Assembly (NCBI GenBank): GCA_023249305.1
Contig: JAHFCU010000012.1
Coordinates: 1-54,407 of the forward strand
Length of the DNA: 54,407 nt
From: Gemmatimonadota bacterium
GTDB taxonomy: Bacteria; Gemmatimonadota; Gemmatimonadetes; Gemmatimonadales; Gemmatimonadaceae
Direction: 5' to 3'
The first letter of the stretch is position 1. Every line of letters starts with the position of its first letter. Shown here one piece after another: positions 34,484 to 42,175 of this stretch. The notes under the pieces are model-generated. The model worked only from the letters and a program-made list of their open reading frames with translations. It was not told the origin of the DNA and did no database searches. The position numbers and the translations under genes were made by a program.

Positions 34484-35521
34484 TTACCCTGCCACGCGGC
34501 TCGACTCTCGTCTCAGCTTCTCGAGCGCTTCACGTCCGGCGCCGGAACGCAACGCATCACGGGCGATGGCGAGCGCCGCCGCGAAGTCCTTCGTCCGGCC
34601 CGCGACGTAGATCGCGGCCGCGGCATTCAACGCCACGGCGGCCACGGCGCCCGGACGGCCACGGCCCGACAGCACGTTCTCGATAACGCGCGCGTTCTCC
34701 GGCGGCTCGGCGCCGACGAGGTCGTGAGCGGCGACCGATGCGATCCCGTGTCGGTCCGGTTCGATCGTCCACGATCGCGCCTCACCGTCCACGAGTTCAA
34801 GCACGGTCGTGGCGCCGAGTGGAGAGATCTCGTCCATGCCGGGCGCGCCGTGCACCACCAAGCTGTGTCGCGTGCCCAGCGCCTGCAGCGCGCCGCCGAT
34901 GAGGCCGAGCCGTTGCGGATCGGCGACGCCGATCACCTGCCGACCTGCCCTTGCGGGATTCGCCAGTGGACCGACCAGGTTCATCACGGTCTGGACCGCC
35001 AGTTCGCGGCGCACGGGTCCAACATGCCGCATCGCCGGGTGCATCGTGGGTGCGAACATGAATACGATGCCGGCCCGGTCGAGCACGTCGTGCATTCGTT
35101 CGACTGGTACGTCAATGCGCACACCCAATGCCTCGAGCACGTCTGCGCTGCCAGACTTCGACGTGAACGAACGGTTGCCGTGCTTGGCCACGCGGACGCC
35201 CGTACCGGCGGCCAGCAACGCTGCCGCCGTCGAGATGTTGAACGTCGTGAGCGTGCCGCCCCCCGTGCCGCAGGTGTCCACGAGGGCTTCGGGCGCGTCC
35301 GCGTGCAGGACGGTCATCGCCTCACGAAGCGCCGTCGCGACGCCGGCAAGCTCGTCGGATGTCTCGCCCTTCACGCGCAAGCCCATGAGCAGCGCGGAGA
35401 CCTGCGCCGGCGTTCCCTCGCCGCGCATGATGCAGCGGAATGCATGCGCGGCCTCGTCCCGCGAGAGCGATTCACCCGCCGCGAGACGACGGAGTGCGGG
35501 ATGCAGCGGGCCGCTACTCAT
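34484..35521 (-). CDS. trpD: Anthranilate phosphoribosyltransferase
   Basis: A 345-residue enzyme transferring phosphoribose from PRPP to anthranilate. Motifs are VDTCGTGGGTLTTFNIST (PRPP pocket), VAKHGNRSFTSKSGSADVLEALG, FAPTMHPAM, and VHGAPGMDEISPLG. The ATG at 35521-35519 overlaps the stop of the GAF protein by 8 bases. trpD is cut off from the other trp genes by lexA, and neither trpE nor trpG is in the window. Confidence 0.96.
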   Translation of the reverse strand: MSSGPLHPALRRLAAGESLSRDEAAHAFRCIMRGEGTPAQVSALLMGLRVKGETSDELAGVATALREAMTVLHADAPEALVDTCGTGGGTLTTFNISTAAALLAAGTGVRVAKHGNRSFTSKSGSADVLEALGVRIDVPVERMHDVLDRAGIVFMFAPTMHPAMRHVGPVRRELAVQTVMNLVGPLANPARAGRQVIGVADPQRLGLIGGALQALGTRHSLVVHGAPGMDEISPLGATTVLELVDGEARSWTIEPDRHGIASVAAHDLVGAEPPENARVIENVLSGRGRPGAVAAVALNAAAAIYVAGRTKDFAAALAIARDALRSGAGREALEKLRRESSRVAG

Positions 35522-36815
35522 GGAAGCGATCGAGCAGCTGCTCGGGCAGGCGTGCCTCGAGGGCGATCAGTGAGATGACTAGGCCCAGCAGGCGCACGCG
35601 CTCGACGTCCTCCTCGACGAAGAGCCCGCGCTGCGCGCGGTTCGTGAGGTTGACGACACCGAGTAGCTCATCGCGGATGATGAGCGGAAACGAAATGAAG
35701 GATCCTGTGGTCAGGTACTCGTCACGCAGCAGCGGTTCGGCGTGTGCATCGGACGCATCCACAACGAGCAGCGGCTGCCGGGTGAGCGCCACGCGACCGG
35801 CGACTCCCTGCCCCACCGTGATGCGCGAGCCCTGGCGCACGTGCGGCGCGAGGCCGCGCGCGGCGGCGAGGTACAGCGTGTCCGGTTCGGGGGCGCGCAG
35901 GAAGAGTGAGCAGCGGTGCGCCTGCATGTCGTCGCCAACGAGGGCAAGCAGCCCCTCGGCGAGCCGTCGCGGATCCACCTGCTCCGCCGCCATCGCGAGC
36001 ACGCGATCGAGCAGGTAAATGGTACGGGTGCGCTGGCGCAGCGCCTCACTACGGCGGTGCAGTTCGATGTGCGCCTGCTCAAGCTGGCCGACTGCGGCCG
36101 TCACCTGCTGCTCAAGCGCGCGGAGCCGGCTCGCATTGCGTCGCGTCTCCTCCGCGGCGCGCGCCACCTCGCGTTCGTGCTGCACGGCCTCCCCCGCGCT
36201 GGCCGTCTTCGCGGCGCCACGCGCCTTCTTGAGTTGCTGCTCGAGGTCCGCCAGGCGTGCAAGGAACTCCTCGTGCACGCGCTGGGTCACATCCTCGAGC
36301 GTGCGCGCCGCCTCAAGCCGCGCGTCGCGCTCGGCGAAGCGGTTGTGTGCCAGCGCAAACAGCGCGGCGAGCGCGCCGCACCCGACCGTCGCACGCTGGC
36401 CGAAAACGCGACGCGGCTCATGCAGCGCCAGCATCGCCGTGAGCTCGCCATCGAAGCGGATGCCCCGCAGCGCGAGTTCACCGGGTGGTTCCGCAAGCAG
36501 CGGGAGCTGGAGCATGCGCGCAAAGGTGTCGGCATCGTCCCCCACATCCGCGAAGACGCCGCCCGCCTGCACCTGCTGGACCACGGCAGTCGGGAATTGG
36601 CGAAGCGCGACTTGCAGCGGTAGTCGCTCCACGCGTCCCTCGCGCCACGCGAGGCGTTCGACGATCTGGCCGTCACGCGCGTGGACCGCGAGGTAGCTCA
36701 TGATCGCCGCGCGGTCAAACTCCGCGAGTCCCTCGGCCAACGCAACAAACGCCGCGTCCAGGTCTGGAGCGGCGGTCAGGGCGTGGGCGAGCGAGACGAG
36801 GGTTGACTCTTGCAT
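35514..36815 (-). CDS. Two-GAF-domain regulatory protein with central coiled coil
   Basis: About 433 residues from the ATG at 36815-36813. The first GAF-like domain (STLVSLAHALTAAPDLDAAF, FDRAAIMSYLA) covers about 1-160, a long charged coiled coil (ARLADLEQQLKKARGAAK, RRNASRLRALEQQVTAAV) about 170-270, and a second, better-conserved GAF domain about 275-425 (RCSLFLRAPEPDTLYLAAARG, ISFPLIIRDELLGVVNLTN). There is no output domain, so it may act through partner proteins. Start is uncertain: ATG at 36884 or TTG at 36917 would add 23 or 34 residues. It is cotranscribed with trpD by an 8-base overlap. Confidence 0.75.
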   Translation of the reverse strand: MQESTLVSLAHALTAAPDLDAAFVALAEGLAEFDRAAIMSYLAVHARDGQIVERLAWREGRVERLPLQVALRQFPTAVVQQVQAGGVFADVGDDADTFARMLQLPLLAEPPGELALRGIRFDGELTAMLALHEPRRVFGQRATVGCGALAALFALAHNRFAERDARLEAARTLEDVTQRVHEEFLARLADLEQQLKKARGAAKTASAGEAVQHEREVARAAEETRRNASRLRALEQQVTAAVGQLEQAHIELHRRSEALRQRTRTIYLLDRVLAMAAEQVDPRRLAEGLLALVGDDMQAHRCSLFLRAPEPDTLYLAAARGLAPHVRQGSRITVGQGVAGRVALTRQPLLVVDASDAHAEPLLRDEYLTTGSFISFPLIIRDELLGVVNLTNRAQRGLFVEEDVERVRLLGLVISLIALEARLPEQLLDRFHE

Positions 36816-36941
36816 CCGGCGGCGGAACGTGAGGGACGTACGGATCGTGGCGTCAGGGCGCGGAATGGCCGGCGCGGCCGCCATCGGGAACGTGAGGCCT
36901 ACGTCGTGCCGTGTCAATCGGTTGGGCGCCGTGCGTTTTGC

Positions 36942-36977: not shown

Positions 36978-37751
36978 ATGTCGGGACGCGTGCTCCAGCT
37001 CGTGTTGCATTATGATGGCACCGACTTTTCCGGATGGCAGGTGCAGCCGGAAACGCGCACCGTGCAGGGAGTCCTGGAATCAGTGCTGGCGCGCCTGTGC
37101 GGCGAGCCGGTGCGGGTGACGGGAGCCGGCCGAACGGATGCGGGCGTGCATGCCCGCGGTCAGGCGGCCGGTGTGGAAGTACCGTCGCACTGGACGCCCG
37201 ATCGCCTGAAGCATGTGCTGAACGCACAGCTTCCCGACGACGTCTTCGTGGCGACGGCGCAGGCGATGCAACCGGAGTTTCACGCGCGGTACAGCGCGAC
37301 CAGCCGGCGGTACAGCTATGCGGTGGGGCTCGACGAGACCGCCCGGTCGCCGTTTCGACGGCGCTGGGAATGGCCCGTCTCGAAGCCCATCGACAGCGAC
37401 GCGCTGGCGTGGTGCGCGACCGCGCTCCTCGGGGAGCACCGTTTCTTCGGGTTTGCGGTTCGTGGCACGGCGCCGGTGGAGGACGACCATCGCTGCGAGA
37501 TTCGTCTCGCGCGCTGGCGCACGGTGCCGGGCGGCGCGGTCTTCGACGTTGAAGCCAACCGCTTCCTGCACCATATGGTGCGTTTCCTCATCGGTACGAT
37601 GATCGAGGTGGCCACGCACCAGCGCCCACGCGAAGAATTCGCCGCGCTGCTCACCGCCGAATCTAACGACGAAGTATCGCCGCCGGCGCCGGCCTGCGGC
37701 CTTTGCCTCGAGCAAGTCACCTATCCCGCCGCCCTGTACCTTACCGACTGA
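36978..37751 (+). CDS. truA: tRNA pseudouridine synthase A
   Basis: A 257-residue enzyme that makes pseudouridine at positions 38-40 of the tRNA anticodon stem. LVLHYDGTDFSGWQVQP opens the fold, the catalytic Asp is D54 in TGAGRTDAGVHARGQ, and VEANRFLHHMVRFLIGTM closes it. The ATG at 36978 gives the exact family N-terminus. The longer frame upstream lies antisense to the GAF gene. It is the first gene of a long plus-strand operon; the next gene shares one base with its stop codon (TGATG). Confidence 0.96.
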   Translation: MSGRVLQLVLHYDGTDFSGWQVQPETRTVQGVLESVLARLCGEPVRVTGAGRTDAGVHARGQAAGVEVPSHWTPDRLKHVLNAQLPDDVFVATAQAMQPEFHARYSATSRRYSYAVGLDETARSPFRRRWEWPVSKPIDSDALAWCATALLGEHRFFGFAVRGTAPVEDDHRCEIRLARWRTVPGGAVFDVEANRFLHHMVRFLIGTMIEVATHQRPREEFAALLTAESNDEVSPPAPACGLCLEQVTYPAALYLTD

Positions 37752-38416
37752 TGCGCATCTACCTCGCTTCCGTCACACTCGATGAAGTTCGCTGGGCGTT
37801 TCATGCCGGCCTGATTGACGGCATCGTTGCCACGCCGGCAGTGATCGCTGCCCAGATGCCCAACGCCGATCCGCGCGAGCTCGTGCAGGAGTTGGCGGCT
37901 GCGGTGCCCCTGCCCGTGATCGCATCGGTGCGCGCGGTCAACCGCGACGAGCTCTACAAGGGAGCGCGCGAACTGACACGCCTCGCCGAGCAGGTCGTCG
38001 TCGCCGTGCCGTTGGTCGAGGACGCGCTGCCGGCCATCAAGCGCCTGAGCGCCGAAGGTGTGCGCGTGGCGGCGACGCTCGTGCACAATGCCGCGCAGGC
38101 TGCGTTGGCGGCGAAGGCGGGCGCGGCATTCGTCACCATCGCCGTGGACGCGGCCGCGCACGTGGGCGACGATCCCACGCGAGCCATCGCGGAGTCGCGG
38201 GCGATCTTCGACCGCTTTGGCCTCGAGTGCGACGTCATCGCCGCCGGACCCGCGAGCGCGCGCGCGTTCACGGACGCGATGACGGTCGGCGCGGACGGCG
38301 CGGTGCTTACGACCGAGGTGCTCAAGGCCCTGCTCCAGCACCCCCTTACGGATCGCGGTTTCGATCGATTCCTCGGCGAGATCAGCCGTCGCCCCAAGCC
38401 CCGCCGCCCGCGATGA
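37751..38416 (+). CDS. Transaldolase/fructose-6-phosphate aldolase-like protein lacking catalytic residues
   Basis: A 221-residue protein of the short transaldolase (FSA/TalC) type, colinear without gaps with E. coli FSA over the first 90 positions I compared (MRIYLASVTL versus MELYLDTSDV; VVVAVPL versus VVKVPV). The Schiff-base lysine K85 is Ala85 here, D6 is Ala6 and N28 is Thr28, so aldol chemistry by the known mechanism is not possible. The barrel core (AIKRLSAEGVRVAATLVHNAAQA, AGAAFVTIAVD) is preserved, so the gene is not decaying. It is tightly coupled to truA upstream and to the HtrA gene downstream (ATGA). A regulatory or different catalytic role is possible; none is established. Confidence 0.82.
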   Translation: MRIYLASVTLDEVRWAFHAGLIDGIVATPAVIAAQMPNADPRELVQELAAAVPLPVIASVRAVNRDELYKGARELTRLAEQVVVAVPLVEDALPAIKRLSAEGVRVAATLVHNAAQAALAAKAGAAFVTIAVDAAAHVGDDPTRAIAESRAIFDRFGLECDVIAAGPASARAFTDAMTVGADGAVLTTEVLKALLQHPLTDRGFDRFLGEISRRPKPRRPR

Positions 38417-39813
38417 GCATGCAGCGCCTGACCCCCCTCTGCTTCGCCCTCTTGCTCGCCTGCGAGGGCGCCTCGCCGTCACGCACCGCGGCGCAGGCCG
38501 TCGCAGCACGACGCGACGCAAACGTGCAGATCGCACAGTCGCGGCGCTCGGCGATCACCGACGCCGTCGCCCGCGTCGCCCCCGCCGTGGTCACCGTGCA
38601 GACGGAAACGGTGTTCCGCACCCCCGTGGATCCGTTCGCGTTCTTCTTCGGCCAGAATCAGGGCGGCACGCAGACCCGCTCGGGCATTGGCTCGGGCTTC
38701 ATCACGCAGCCCAGCGGCGTGATTGTCACGAACGCGCACGTGGTGGCGGGCACCTCGAACGTCAGCGTGGCGCTGCGCGATGGAACGACGTATCCAGCGA
38801 AGGTCGTCGGCATTGACGAGATGAACGACCTCGCGGTGCTCAAGATCGACGCACGCGGCCTGCCGGTCGCTCCGCTCGGCAGCTCACGCGACATGCTCAT
38901 TGGCGAGTGGGCCATTGCCATCGGCAATCCCTACGGCTTTCTCCTCGGCAACTCTGAGCCCTCAGTGACGGCCGGCGTCATCAGCGCGACCGGACGCAAC
39001 CTGATGGGCCAGAGCGACGGCCAGGGCGTGTACGTGGACATGATCCAGACCGACGCGTCCATCAATCCGGGCAACTCCGGCGGGCCGCTCGTGAACGCGG
39101 CCGGCGAAGTGATCGGCGTGAACAGCTCCATCTATACGCCCTCGGGCGGTTCGATCGGCCTCGGTTTCGCGATACCGATTGACCGCGCGAAGCGCGTCAC
39201 CGACGACCTGCTGGCGCACGGAACCGTGCGACGGCCGTGGATCGGCGTGAAACTCGCGCTTCCGGAGCAGAACAACCGCGATGCGCTGCGCGGCGGTGCC
39301 GTGATCCGTACGGTCACGCCCGGCTCGCCGGCGGCCACGGCCGGACTCGAGGTCGGCGATGTGATCGTGCAGTCGCGCGACCGCGTCGTGCGCAATGCCT
39401 ACGATTGGGAAGCCGAGCTGCTCGAGATGCGCGTTGGAGAGCAAGCCGACGTACGCGTACGCCGCGGTGGGCGCGAGCGCACGGTGCAGGTCCGTATTGC
39501 CGATCTACCAGAAGTCGCGGCGCAGAAAGTCGCAGTGCTCAAGGAGATCGAGCTGGTCACGCTGACGCCCGCGATCCGCGCCGAACGCAGCGTGCGCTCG
39601 GGACAGGGCGCGGTGGTCTACAAGGTCTCGTCGCGCGTCACCGAAGAGCTGGGCGTGCAGACTGGCGACGTGATCGTGCAGGTGAACCGGAGCGCCGTCA
39701 CGGACGCTCAGCAGGCCGGCCGCTTGCTGGAGTCGCTGACGGGACGCGGCCCGATTCGCATGATCATCGAGCGCGGCGGATTCCTCTACCCTATTGATTT
39801 CCAGATCCGATGA
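38413..39813 (+). CDS. HtrA/Deg-type serine protease, probable lipoprotein
   Basis: A 466-residue periplasmic protease. The signal ends in a lipobox, LLAC (C17), so it is probably lipid-anchored. The trypsin-like domain has H109 (VTNAHVV), D139 (DEMNDLAVLK) and S222 (NPGNSGGPL). One clear PDZ domain follows (about 275-365, TPGSPAATAGLEVGDVIV) and a second near the C-terminus (about 380-460, VTEELGVQTGDVIVQVNR). It degrades or refolds damaged envelope proteins. The ATG overlaps the previous stop by 4 bases and the purB start overlaps its own stop. Confidence 0.92.
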   Translation: MSMQRLTPLCFALLLACEGASPSRTAAQAVAARRDANVQIAQSRRSAITDAVARVAPAVVTVQTETVFRTPVDPFAFFFGQNQGGTQTRSGIGSGFITQPSGVIVTNAHVVAGTSNVSVALRDGTTYPAKVVGIDEMNDLAVLKIDARGLPVAPLGSSRDMLIGEWAIAIGNPYGFLLGNSEPSVTAGVISATGRNLMGQSDGQGVYVDMIQTDASINPGNSGGPLVNAAGEVIGVNSSIYTPSGGSIGLGFAIPIDRAKRVTDDLLAHGTVRRPWIGVKLALPEQNNRDALRGGAVIRTVTPGSPAATAGLEVGDVIVQSRDRVVRNAYDWEAELLEMRVGEQADVRVRRGGRERTVQVRIADLPEVAAQKVAVLKEIELVTLTPAIRAERSVRSGQGAVVYKVSSRVTEELGVQTGDVIVQVNRSAVTDAQQAGRLLESLTGRGPIRMIIERGGFLYPIDFQIR

Positions 39814-41246
39814 CTGACACCGCGACGTGGAGCTCCCCGCTGGCCGAGCGCTACGCCTCGGCGGCGATGCTGCGGCTGTGGTCGCCCGCGTCGCGGTACG
39901 GTCTCTGGCGCCGCTTGTGGCTCGCGCTCGCGGAAGCGGAGCGCGACCTTGGCGCCGAGATCCCCGAGGCGGCGATCGCGGAGATGCGTGCGCATCTCGA
40001 CGACATTGACTTCGCGGCGGTCGCCGCGTACGAGAAGCGCTTTCGCCACGACGTGATGGCCCACGTGCATGCCTTCGGCGACGTGGCACCGGCGGCGCGC
40101 GGTGTCATCCACCTCGGGGCGACGTCGGCTTTCGTGACCGACAACGCGGATCTCATCCTGATGCGGCGAGGCCTCGAGTTGCTCCACGCGCGCGTCATCG
40201 CGGTGCTCCGCACGCTGGCGGCCTTTGCCGCGCAGTGGAAGGACGAGCCCGCACTCGGCTACACGCACCTGCAGCCGGCGCAGCCGACCACCGTGGGCAA
40301 GCGCGCCACGCTCTGGATGCAGGACCTCATCCTCGACCTCGCCGACCTCGACCATCGCGTGGCCGCGCTTCCGCTGCGCGGCGTAAAGGGGACAACGGGA
40401 ACGCAGGCGAGCTTCCTCGCGATTTTCGCTGGCAATCATGCCAAGGTACGCGAGCTCGACCGTCGCGTGACGCACGCGATGGGATTCAACACGTCGCTGC
40501 CGGTCACCGGCCAGACGTACACGCGCAAGCTCGATGCGCACGTGCTTGACGTGTTGGCCGGCGTGGCCGCCACCGCCGCGAAGTTCGCGAGCGACCTGCG
40601 CCTCCTACAGGCTTTCGGCGAGATCGAGGAGCCGTTTGAGAAGGAGCAGATCGGGTCCTCGGCGATGGCGTACAAGCGCAACCCCATGCGCAGCGAGCGC
40701 ATCAACGCGCTGAGCCGGTTCGTGCTGTCGCTCACGCCTAACGCCAACCAGACGCACAGCGTGCAGTTCTTCGAGCGGACGCTCGATGATTCGGCGAATC
40801 GGCGGCTGGCGATTCCGGAGGCGTTTCTCGCGACTGACGCGCTGCTCATCCTGATGGAGAACGTTGCGCGCGGACTCGAGGTGCATCCGGCGCGGATCCG
40901 CCGGCGGCTCGCCGATGAGCTGCCGTTCATGGCCACCGAGGAGCTGATCGTGCGCGCCGTGCAGGCGGGCGCCGACCGTCAGGCAGTGCACGAGGTGATT
41001 CGCGTGCACAGTATCGCAGCCGCGCGTGCCATGAAGGACGAGGGAGTGCCCAACGACATGCTCGACCGGCTGGCCGCCGATCCCGCGTACCCGGTGGCAA
41101 TTACCGACCTGAAGGAGACGCTCGATCCCACGCGCTACACTGGTCGGTCCTCCCAACAGGTTATGGAGTTCCTGGCCGAGACTGTGCAGCCAGTGCTGGA
41201 CGCCGCCGGTGCGGCCGATGCCAGCCGCGAAGAGGTGCGCGTATGA
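39810..41246 (+). CDS. purB: Adenylosuccinate lyase
   Basis: A 478-residue fumarase/aspartase-superfamily enzyme that cleaves SAICAR and adenylosuccinate. Conserved parts are [48 protein letters not shown] and the family signature [15 protein letters not shown], with the flexible catalytic serine in the GSS. It overlaps htrA by 4 bases and purC by 4. Confidence 0.96.
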
Positions 41247-42175
41247 GTCCGACCATGGTGGGAACAACTGCCCTGCCCTTGCCCAGTGTGCGGCGCGGCA
41301 AGGTGCGCGACGTGTATGCGGTGGGCGATGGGCGCTTGCTGCTCGTGGCAAGTGACCGCGTGAGCGCCTTCGACGTCGTGATGCGCGAGCTCGTGCCGTA
41401 CAAGGGCGCCGTGCTCACGCAGATCACCGCGTGGTGGCTGCGCCAATTCGAGGAGGAGATCGCGCACCACATGCTCAGCGTCGATGCAGACGAAATCGTC
41501 GCTGCCACCCCTGCACTCCGCCCGCATGTCCAGCAGCTGCGCGGCCGCGCGATGCTCTGCCGCCGCACCGACGTGTTCCCGATCGAGTGCGTGGTGCGCG
41601 GCTACATCAGCGGCTCGGCGTGGAAGGAGTACAAGACGTCGGGGACACTGGCGGGCGAACAGCTGCCGCCGGGGCTACTCGAGAGTGCGCCCTTCACGCG
41701 CCCGATCTTTTCGCCTGCGACCAAGGCCGAAACCGGGCATGACGAAAACATCACGATGGAACAGATGCGTGGCGTCGTGGGCGCGGCCGACGCCGCCGCG
41801 CTCGAGACGCTCGCGCGGCGCCTGTACGAACGCGGCCGCGACGTCGCGGCCTCGCGCGGCATTATCATCGCCGACACGAAATTCGAGTTCGGGCGAGCGC
41901 CCGACGGCCGCGTCCTGCTGATTGACGAGGTCATGACGCCTGACAGCTCGCGCTTCTGGCCGGCCGATCAATACGCGCCCGGGCGCACGCAGCCGAGCTT
42001 CGACAAGCAGCCGCTGCGCGACTGGCTCGACACCGAGCGCCGCGCAGGGCGCTGGGACGGCAACGCACCGCCGCCGACGCTTTCCGACGCCGTGGTCGCG
42101 GCGACAAGCGAGCGCTACCTCGATGCGTTCCGCCGCATCACCGGCGCGCCGCTCGACACGCGGGCGCTGCAATGA
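41243..42175 (+). CDS. purC: Phosphoribosylaminoimidazole-succinocarboxamide (SAICAR) synthase
   Basis: A 310-residue ATP-dependent ligase joining CAIR and aspartate. [29 protein letters not shown] (nucleotide binding), [31 protein letters not shown] and DTKFEFG plus [15 protein letters not shown] are all present. The length matches the longer SAICAR synthase type. The order purB-purC places two adjacent pathway steps in coupled genes. Confidence 0.96.

Follow-up and report, generated by a model that had tools for sequence, protein, structure and literature searches.

The closest described relatives of the protein considered here are the small (subfamily IV) transaldolases of T. maritima (1vpx), B. 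subtilis (3r8r) and T. acidophilum (3s0c). PMC7092467 describes the transaldolase subfamilies, the Schiff base and the active-site aspartate, and reports the B. subtilis enzyme (Ta) as a decamer. A related protein of 221 amino acids is encoded in a stretch of 54,407 nucleotides from contig JAHFCU010000012.1 of a Gemmatimonadota bacterium (assembly GCA_023249305.1; the whole stretch is called the window below). In comparison with the subfamily IV enzymes, the Schiff-base Lys, Asp6, Asn28, Glu59, Arg134, Ser166 and Arg168 are all replaced in the window protein, and a polybasic C-terminal tail is new. An earlier, sequence-only reading of the window had noted three of these replacements and proposed either a pseudoenzyme or new chemistry. 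Sequence comparison and a predicted fold now suggest that the protein is a displaced small transaldolase, which has lost its catalytic site and has probably been kept for another, binding role.

The window protein scored 68 bits with the Pfam profile PF00923 (TAL_FSA; cut-off 27) and stayed below the cut-off of the NCBIfam equivalog TIGR00875 (fsa_talC_mipB; 138.3 vs 245.95 bits). With the latter profile a Lys-bearing orthologue of another family scored 295.1, an intermediate with D/N/E at positions 6, 28 and 85 (residues at these positions are given in this order below) 244.4, and two other Lys-less copies 160.2 and 137.9. The best matches among solved structures were small transaldolases, colinear over residues 1-210 (1vpx, E 8.6e-36), and the match to E. 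coli fructose-6-phosphate aldolase (FSA, 1l6w) was weaker (residues 17-207, E 1e-13). The colinearity with E. coli FSA described in the sequence-only reading thus holds for residues 17-207, but the nearest relatives are small transaldolases and not strict FSA. Since the Lys-bearing rows have Glu59 and Phe131, the ancestor, too, was a small transaldolase rather than a strict FSA. Residues are numbered as in E. coli FSA, and Arg134, Arg168 and Ser166 are taken to form the phosphate site. In the alignment, the Schiff-base Lys85 is replaced by Ala85, Asp6, Asn28 and Glu/Gln59 by Ala6, Thr28 and Ser59, and Arg134, Arg168 and Ser166 by Ala134, Ala168 and Gly166. The three changes noticed earlier were thus confirmed, and the loss extends to E59S, N107A, F131A, G133D, R134A, S166G and R168A. 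The 63 rows of the Lys group, wherever they are aligned, all have Asp, Asn and Glu at positions 6, 28 and 59. Because the Schiff-base aldol reaction needs an amine side chain and there is none at that place, the ancestral Schiff-base transaldol/aldol activity has, judging by the alignment, very likely been lost.

The protein was found in 253 of the 395 genomes of the phylum that were searched. By our count 100 of the carriers belong to the window's family (f1), and all of these were genotyped, 94 in a first set tabulated with the TalAB-type proteins described below and six later, outside that table. The sequence-only reading could have been overturned by close relatives keeping Lys85 or by a pattern unique to one genome, neither of which was seen. 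Lys was absent in all 100 family genomes, including four (G087, G307, G353, G384) whose copies are partial or frameshifted but cover the Lys position and were scored there. All 11 species of the window's genus (g1) and two more genera (g2 and g9) have the Ala/Thr/Ala state, and this conservation rules out a sequencing error, chance or a private mutation. There are 39 Ala/Thr/Ala loci in the three genera (duplicates excluded), 38 of them intact. The rest of the family has Gln, Glu, Arg or Met at the Lys position and varied residues at 6 and 28. Among the 153 carriers from other families 100 were genotyped, and 99 of these had D/N/K (56 + 43; the neighbourhood was checked for the first 56). Six more rows outside the TalAB table (L159, L165, L166, L169, L170, L171) also keep Lys. 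The single exception from another family, G320 (L163, C117:684-1319), has a Lys-less copy in a 2.8 kb locus on a short contig. The TruA and HtrA scores of this locus (258 and 504 bits) resemble those of the window's family, and the copy is likely to be a binning error. A pattern scan of genome contigs for close relatives, which was not aimed at Lys-less relatives in other phyla, returned nine loci, eight titled Gemmatimonadota, Gemmatimonadetes or Gemmatimonas and one titled 'bacterium'. Going by these relatives of the genus, the named ones being Gemmatimonadota MAGs, f1 is probably Gemmatimonadaceae. In a plasmid collection 83 records had relatives, all below 60% identity.

Lys-bearing and Lys-less forms share the locus order truA-X-(htrA)-purB. 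An upstream truA combined with a downstream htrA or purB was present at 38/39 Ala/Thr/Ala loci, 54/56 other Lys-less loci and 54/62 Lys loci. Five of the 11 misses (L165, L166, L169, L170, L171) had no such neighbour and seem to sit at another locus; the other six had one neighbour only. L165, L169, L170 and L171, all from other families, are small transaldolases that keep Lys but have no truA, htrA or purB beside them; they represent a second type, present in parts of the phylum. The linkage to truA and htrA, on which the sequence-only reading had leaned, is therefore real and general among homologues, but it is ancestral: since Lys-bearing orthologues of other families share these neighbours, they give no hint of a new function.

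A tree was calculated from 95 rows hand-thinned from the genotyped loci, with 15 active-site columns removed and two partial loci among the rows skipped. It is a quick tree without bootstraps, in which the long rows L145, L121 and L166 are uncertain and one outgroup row falls on the wrong side. One branch splits the Lys from the Lys-less rows (Shimodaira-Hasegawa-like approximate likelihood ratio test, SH-aLRT, 99). Among the Lys-less rows, those with D/N/E, D/D/E and D/N/M branch off basally, and those with Ala/Thr/Ala cluster together (support 81). All seven basal Lys-less rows keep Asp6, Arg134, Ser166 and Arg168, with Glu59 changed in six and Asn28 in three of them; Lys and Glu59 were thus lost early and the phosphate site late. 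Taking into account that both forms occupy one locus and are separated by a single branch, the Lys-less form is the positional orthologue of the small (subfamily IV type) transaldolase, with the catalytic site erased. Synteny and the tree rule out both horizontal import and a paralogue at another position.

Selection on the gene was estimated from the ratio of nonsynonymous to synonymous substitution rates (dN/dS). In the window's genus the median was 0.083 for the pseudo-transaldolase, 0.144 for truA and 0.109 for htrA (11 species, 55 pairs each); the medians were 0.154 in g9, 0.180 in g3 (57 of 66 pairs usable) and 0.075 for Lys-bearing orthologues from genera of family f2. The protein thus combines a loss of essential residues that is conserved between species with purifying selection on an intact frame, two of the features expected of a pseudoenzyme. 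Conservation in three genera, low dN/dS and the general truA/htrA linkage support both the earlier view that the gene is selected rather than decaying and the proposal of a pseudoenzyme or new chemistry; nothing found requires new chemistry.

Conservation of the pocket, whose positions were picked from structures of the family, was expressed as entropy in comparison with the overall value. The pocket is nearly invariant in the Lys rows (0.04 vs 0.96). In the Ala/Thr/Ala clade its entropy is again below the overall value (0.62 vs 1.00), at a level reached by 0.8% of random position sets, and the same is seen in g9 (0.6%) and g2 (1.2%) taken singly. In this clade A6, V26, A27, T28, P29, S59, A85, T109 and D133 are present in 38/38 copies and A107 in 37/38, and 19 positions are fixed (at least 95%) that are rare (<15%) among the Lys rows. 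A108, A115, D133, C160 and D161, fixed in the clade, are common to most other Lys-less rows as well, a possible sign of a shared constraint once Lys was lost.

In a monomer model the eight-stranded transaldolase barrel was predicted whole, with a predicted local distance difference test score (pLDDT) of 92.2 when 41 environmental viral relatives were added to the alignment; an earlier prediction from same-genus sequences only had reached 42.5. The model superimposed on 1vpx and 3r8r with template modelling scores (TM-scores) of up to 0.92. The C-terminus fits the pattern RRx[KR]x[RK]Rx[RK] in 38/38 intact Ala/Thr/Ala copies. At least six basic residues among the last nine were present in all 38 of these and in 0/56 Lys rows and 0/49 other Lys-less rows, some of which have moderately basic ends, up to +5. 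Not counted were nine Lys-less rows (seven basal, two partial), the G087 copy with its frameshift, and six Lys rows, namely L162 and five that lack the truA surroundings; two of the 49 rows are duplicate fetches (L142, L143). As the tail Arg residues use several codons and Arg and Lys are exchanged at 216, 218 and 221, it seems to be the charge itself that is kept.

The window's genome encodes a second PF00923 protein (C33:7626-8666), of TalAB length and with the Asp, Asn, Lys and Arg motifs as read by eye. A TalAB-type match, with the threshold set by us at a best E of about 1e-70 or lower (G284 being borderline), was present in 91/95 Lys-less genomes vs 8/56 Lys genomes; these are plain counts over genomes that, being related, are not independent of one another. 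The seven basal genomes of the Lys-less side and eight Lys genomes carry both the small-transaldolase gene and a TalAB-type match, from which we infer that the arrival of TalAB preceded the loss of Lys. TruA was also searched in 30 genomes without the gene (28 of the family, two others) and matched in 26, of which 24 were family genomes. In all 26 htrA followed truA directly, with no room for the gene; the gene is therefore either kept without its site or cleanly absent.

These results can be arranged in the following scheme, which we regard as probable. A TalAB-type transaldolase would have arrived in the ancestry of the family, and the site of the small transaldolase would have been erased afterwards or simultaneously, the folded barrel being retained since the protein does something else. 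Lys was lost early and the other residues changed stepwise, the rest of the site following; in the Ala/Thr/Ala clade small residues became fixed anew in the pocket, and the polybasic tail was gained. The barrel may be oligomeric, and its Arg/Lys tails could contact an acidic or polyanionic partner such as RNA, polyphosphate or an acidic protein; such a partner is suggested by the basic character of the tail. Taken by itself, binding of the tails to an acidic or polyanionic partner is a tentative proposal, drawn from the tail sequences, that may well prove wrong. The full picture, in which a class I aldolase barrel displaced by TalAB became, at its ancestral locus, an oligomeric polyanion-binding scaffold (perhaps for RNA or the ribosome) with a tail on every subunit, is rather unlikely to be right in all its parts.

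Several observations weigh against a displaced enzyme kept for binding. Many members of the family are without the gene: its clean absence, in several genera, from 24/24 truA loci located in family genomes that gave no match to the protein implies that its function is dispensable in some lineages. A TalAB-type match was not detected in three family genomes with a Lys-less copy (G124, G206, G292), possibly owing to incompleteness. The dN/dS values of other Lys-less sets are higher, 0.18 to 0.33 (g6+g7 0.325; D/N/E and D/D/E types 0.284), as is that of the Ala/Thr/Ala genus g2 (0.293). Pocket conservation falls below the average in the remaining Lys-less rows (entropy 2.27 vs 1.71) and exceeds it only weakly within g1 alone, where 9% of random sets reach an entropy as low. 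Because of this freer pocket and the higher dN/dS, one function common to all Lys-less clades is not established. The Ala/Thr/Ala copy of G087 (L128 / L144, C12:6965-7622) lies in two frames, owing either to a frameshift or to faulty assembly. Arg codons are favoured in high-GC DNA, a point countered by the Arg/Lys exchange at three tail positions. Some of these observations would also suit a relic, an enzyme that has been displaced and is decaying towards deletion: the clean absence in several genera, the frameshifted G087 copy, the TalAB-type match in most Lys-less genomes and the higher dN/dS of some Lys-less sets. In the window's genus, however, the median dN/dS lies below those of truA and htrA, the identical A6/T28/A85 and the charge-kept tail persist across genera at only ~55% identity to the window protein, and the fold is predicted to be whole. 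Decay is unlikely in the window's clade, and we give the relic explanation very little weight.

The main rival of a binding pseudoenzyme is a new Lys-free activity, in which the barrel with Ser59, Thr28, Thr109, Asp133 and small residues would perform a Lys-independent lyase, aldolase or isomerase reaction. It would account for the above-average conservation of the rebuilt Ala/Thr/Ala pocket in three genera, and for Asp133 being the commonest residue at its position in the other Lys-less rows as well (71%). However, Arg134 and Arg168 are lost, many of the fixed residues are Ala, Val or Gly and so better suited to packing than to a catalytic role, Asp133 is the only fixed charged residue of the pocket, and apart from the ancestral locus nothing was found that connects the gene to a new pathway; a new enzyme therefore appears improbable. 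One specific reaction that could run without a lysine is that of dihydroneopterin aldolase, where the pterin could act as electron sink. Members of the transaldolase family were predicted as the missing FolB (FolB2) in PMC1971073. Consistent with this, folB is on the same contig, ~5-14 kb from the locus, in 14 of 25 folB-bearing genomes, and was undetected in 11/11 genomes of the window's genus. But folK, whose protein would use the product, was undetected in the same 11 genomes, so the role, barring an HPPK that escaped recognition, fails for the genus and was rejected there. The HPPK family was found in 73/158 family genomes, several genomes without the gene are also without folB (e.g. G019, G140), and two Ala/Thr/Ala genomes of g9 that have folK (G169, G308) have folB as well; a FolB2 role is hardly credible. 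PTPS, present in 157/158 family genomes, was uninformative on this question. The window's genome (G000) and its genus, with PTPS-family proteins present, may be without de novo folate synthesis, judging by folB and folK (folP and folE were not searched). In G169, G308 and G316 (g9) the folB match scored above those of the rest of the family and was carried by a different contig from the truA locus, which would fit a separate acquisition.

The coordinates of the gene and its neighbours are collected in Table 1. The open reading frame has 221 codons, from ATG at 37751 to TGA at 38414-38416. The translational coupling to truA and htrA proposed earlier is borne out by the two junctions: the last base of the truA stop (TGA, 37749-37751) is the first base of the pseudo-transaldolase ATG, and the htrA ATG at 38413 overlaps the pseudo-transaldolase TGA.

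Table 1. Features of the pseudo-transaldolase locus in the window
Feature	Position	Strand	Evidence
Pseudo-transaldolase gene, 221 aa, Ala6/Thr28/Ala85	37751..38416	+	open reading frame, profile and alignment
Ala6 codon (Asp in Lys-bearing relatives)	37766..37768	+	alignment
Thr28 codon (Asn in Lys-bearing relatives)	37832..37834	+	alignment
Ala85 codon (position of the Schiff-base Lys)	38003..38005	+	alignment
Polybasic C-terminal tail, residues 213-221, RRPKPRRPR, kept in the Ala/Thr/Ala clade	38387..38413	+	row comparison
truA, tRNA pseudouridine synthase; stop overlaps the pseudo-transaldolase start (TGATG)	36978..37751	+	
htrA-type trypsin/PDZ protease; start overlaps the pseudo-transaldolase stop (ATGA)	38413..39813	+	
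purB, adenylosuccinate lyase; member of the conserved locus	39810..41246	+	
purC, SAICAR synthetase; member of the conserved locus	41243..42175	+	

The htrA-type protein has a hydrophobic N-terminal stretch ending in LLLAC, by eye a possible lipoprotein signal. Divergent from truA and beside it, at 35514-36917 on the minus strand, is a gene for a 467-amino-acid protein with a C-terminal GAF domain; the same arrangement occurs in many loci of the family.

We regard the finding as a probable transaldolase-family pseudoenzyme with preserved intermediates. One conserved locus in one phylum holds Lys-bearing orthologues, intermediates with part of the site, erased copies and clean absences, mostly with a second transaldolase alongside, so that the route from enzyme to pseudoenzyme is testable with natural proteins, where bacterial pseudoenzymes are usually viewed as end points. 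The results also suggest that annotation as fructose-6-phosphate aldolase/transaldolase would mislead for the whole family. No natural Lys-less transaldolase family was found in the open-licence literature of PubMed Central, as judged by titles and the starts of abstracts. Of the systems that can be compared, E. coli FSA is farther from the window protein than the small transaldolases, and its catalytic residues are absent here. The class II aldolase domain of adducin is an animal fold unrelated to the transaldolase family. It offers an analogy only, as an aldolase-related fold used in protein interaction (PMC12599920). The engineered Lys86Ala transaldolase of T. acidophilum (3s1w) carries, by its entry title, a change matching the natural one described here, but it is a laboratory variant with one residue changed, whereas many are changed in the window protein. 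The truncated transaldolase of B. methanolicus MGA3, as presented in PMC7092467, is like the window protein natural and small, and it is inactive and without the active-site aspartate; it differs in being a point-mutated, truncated allele of one strain and not a conserved family.
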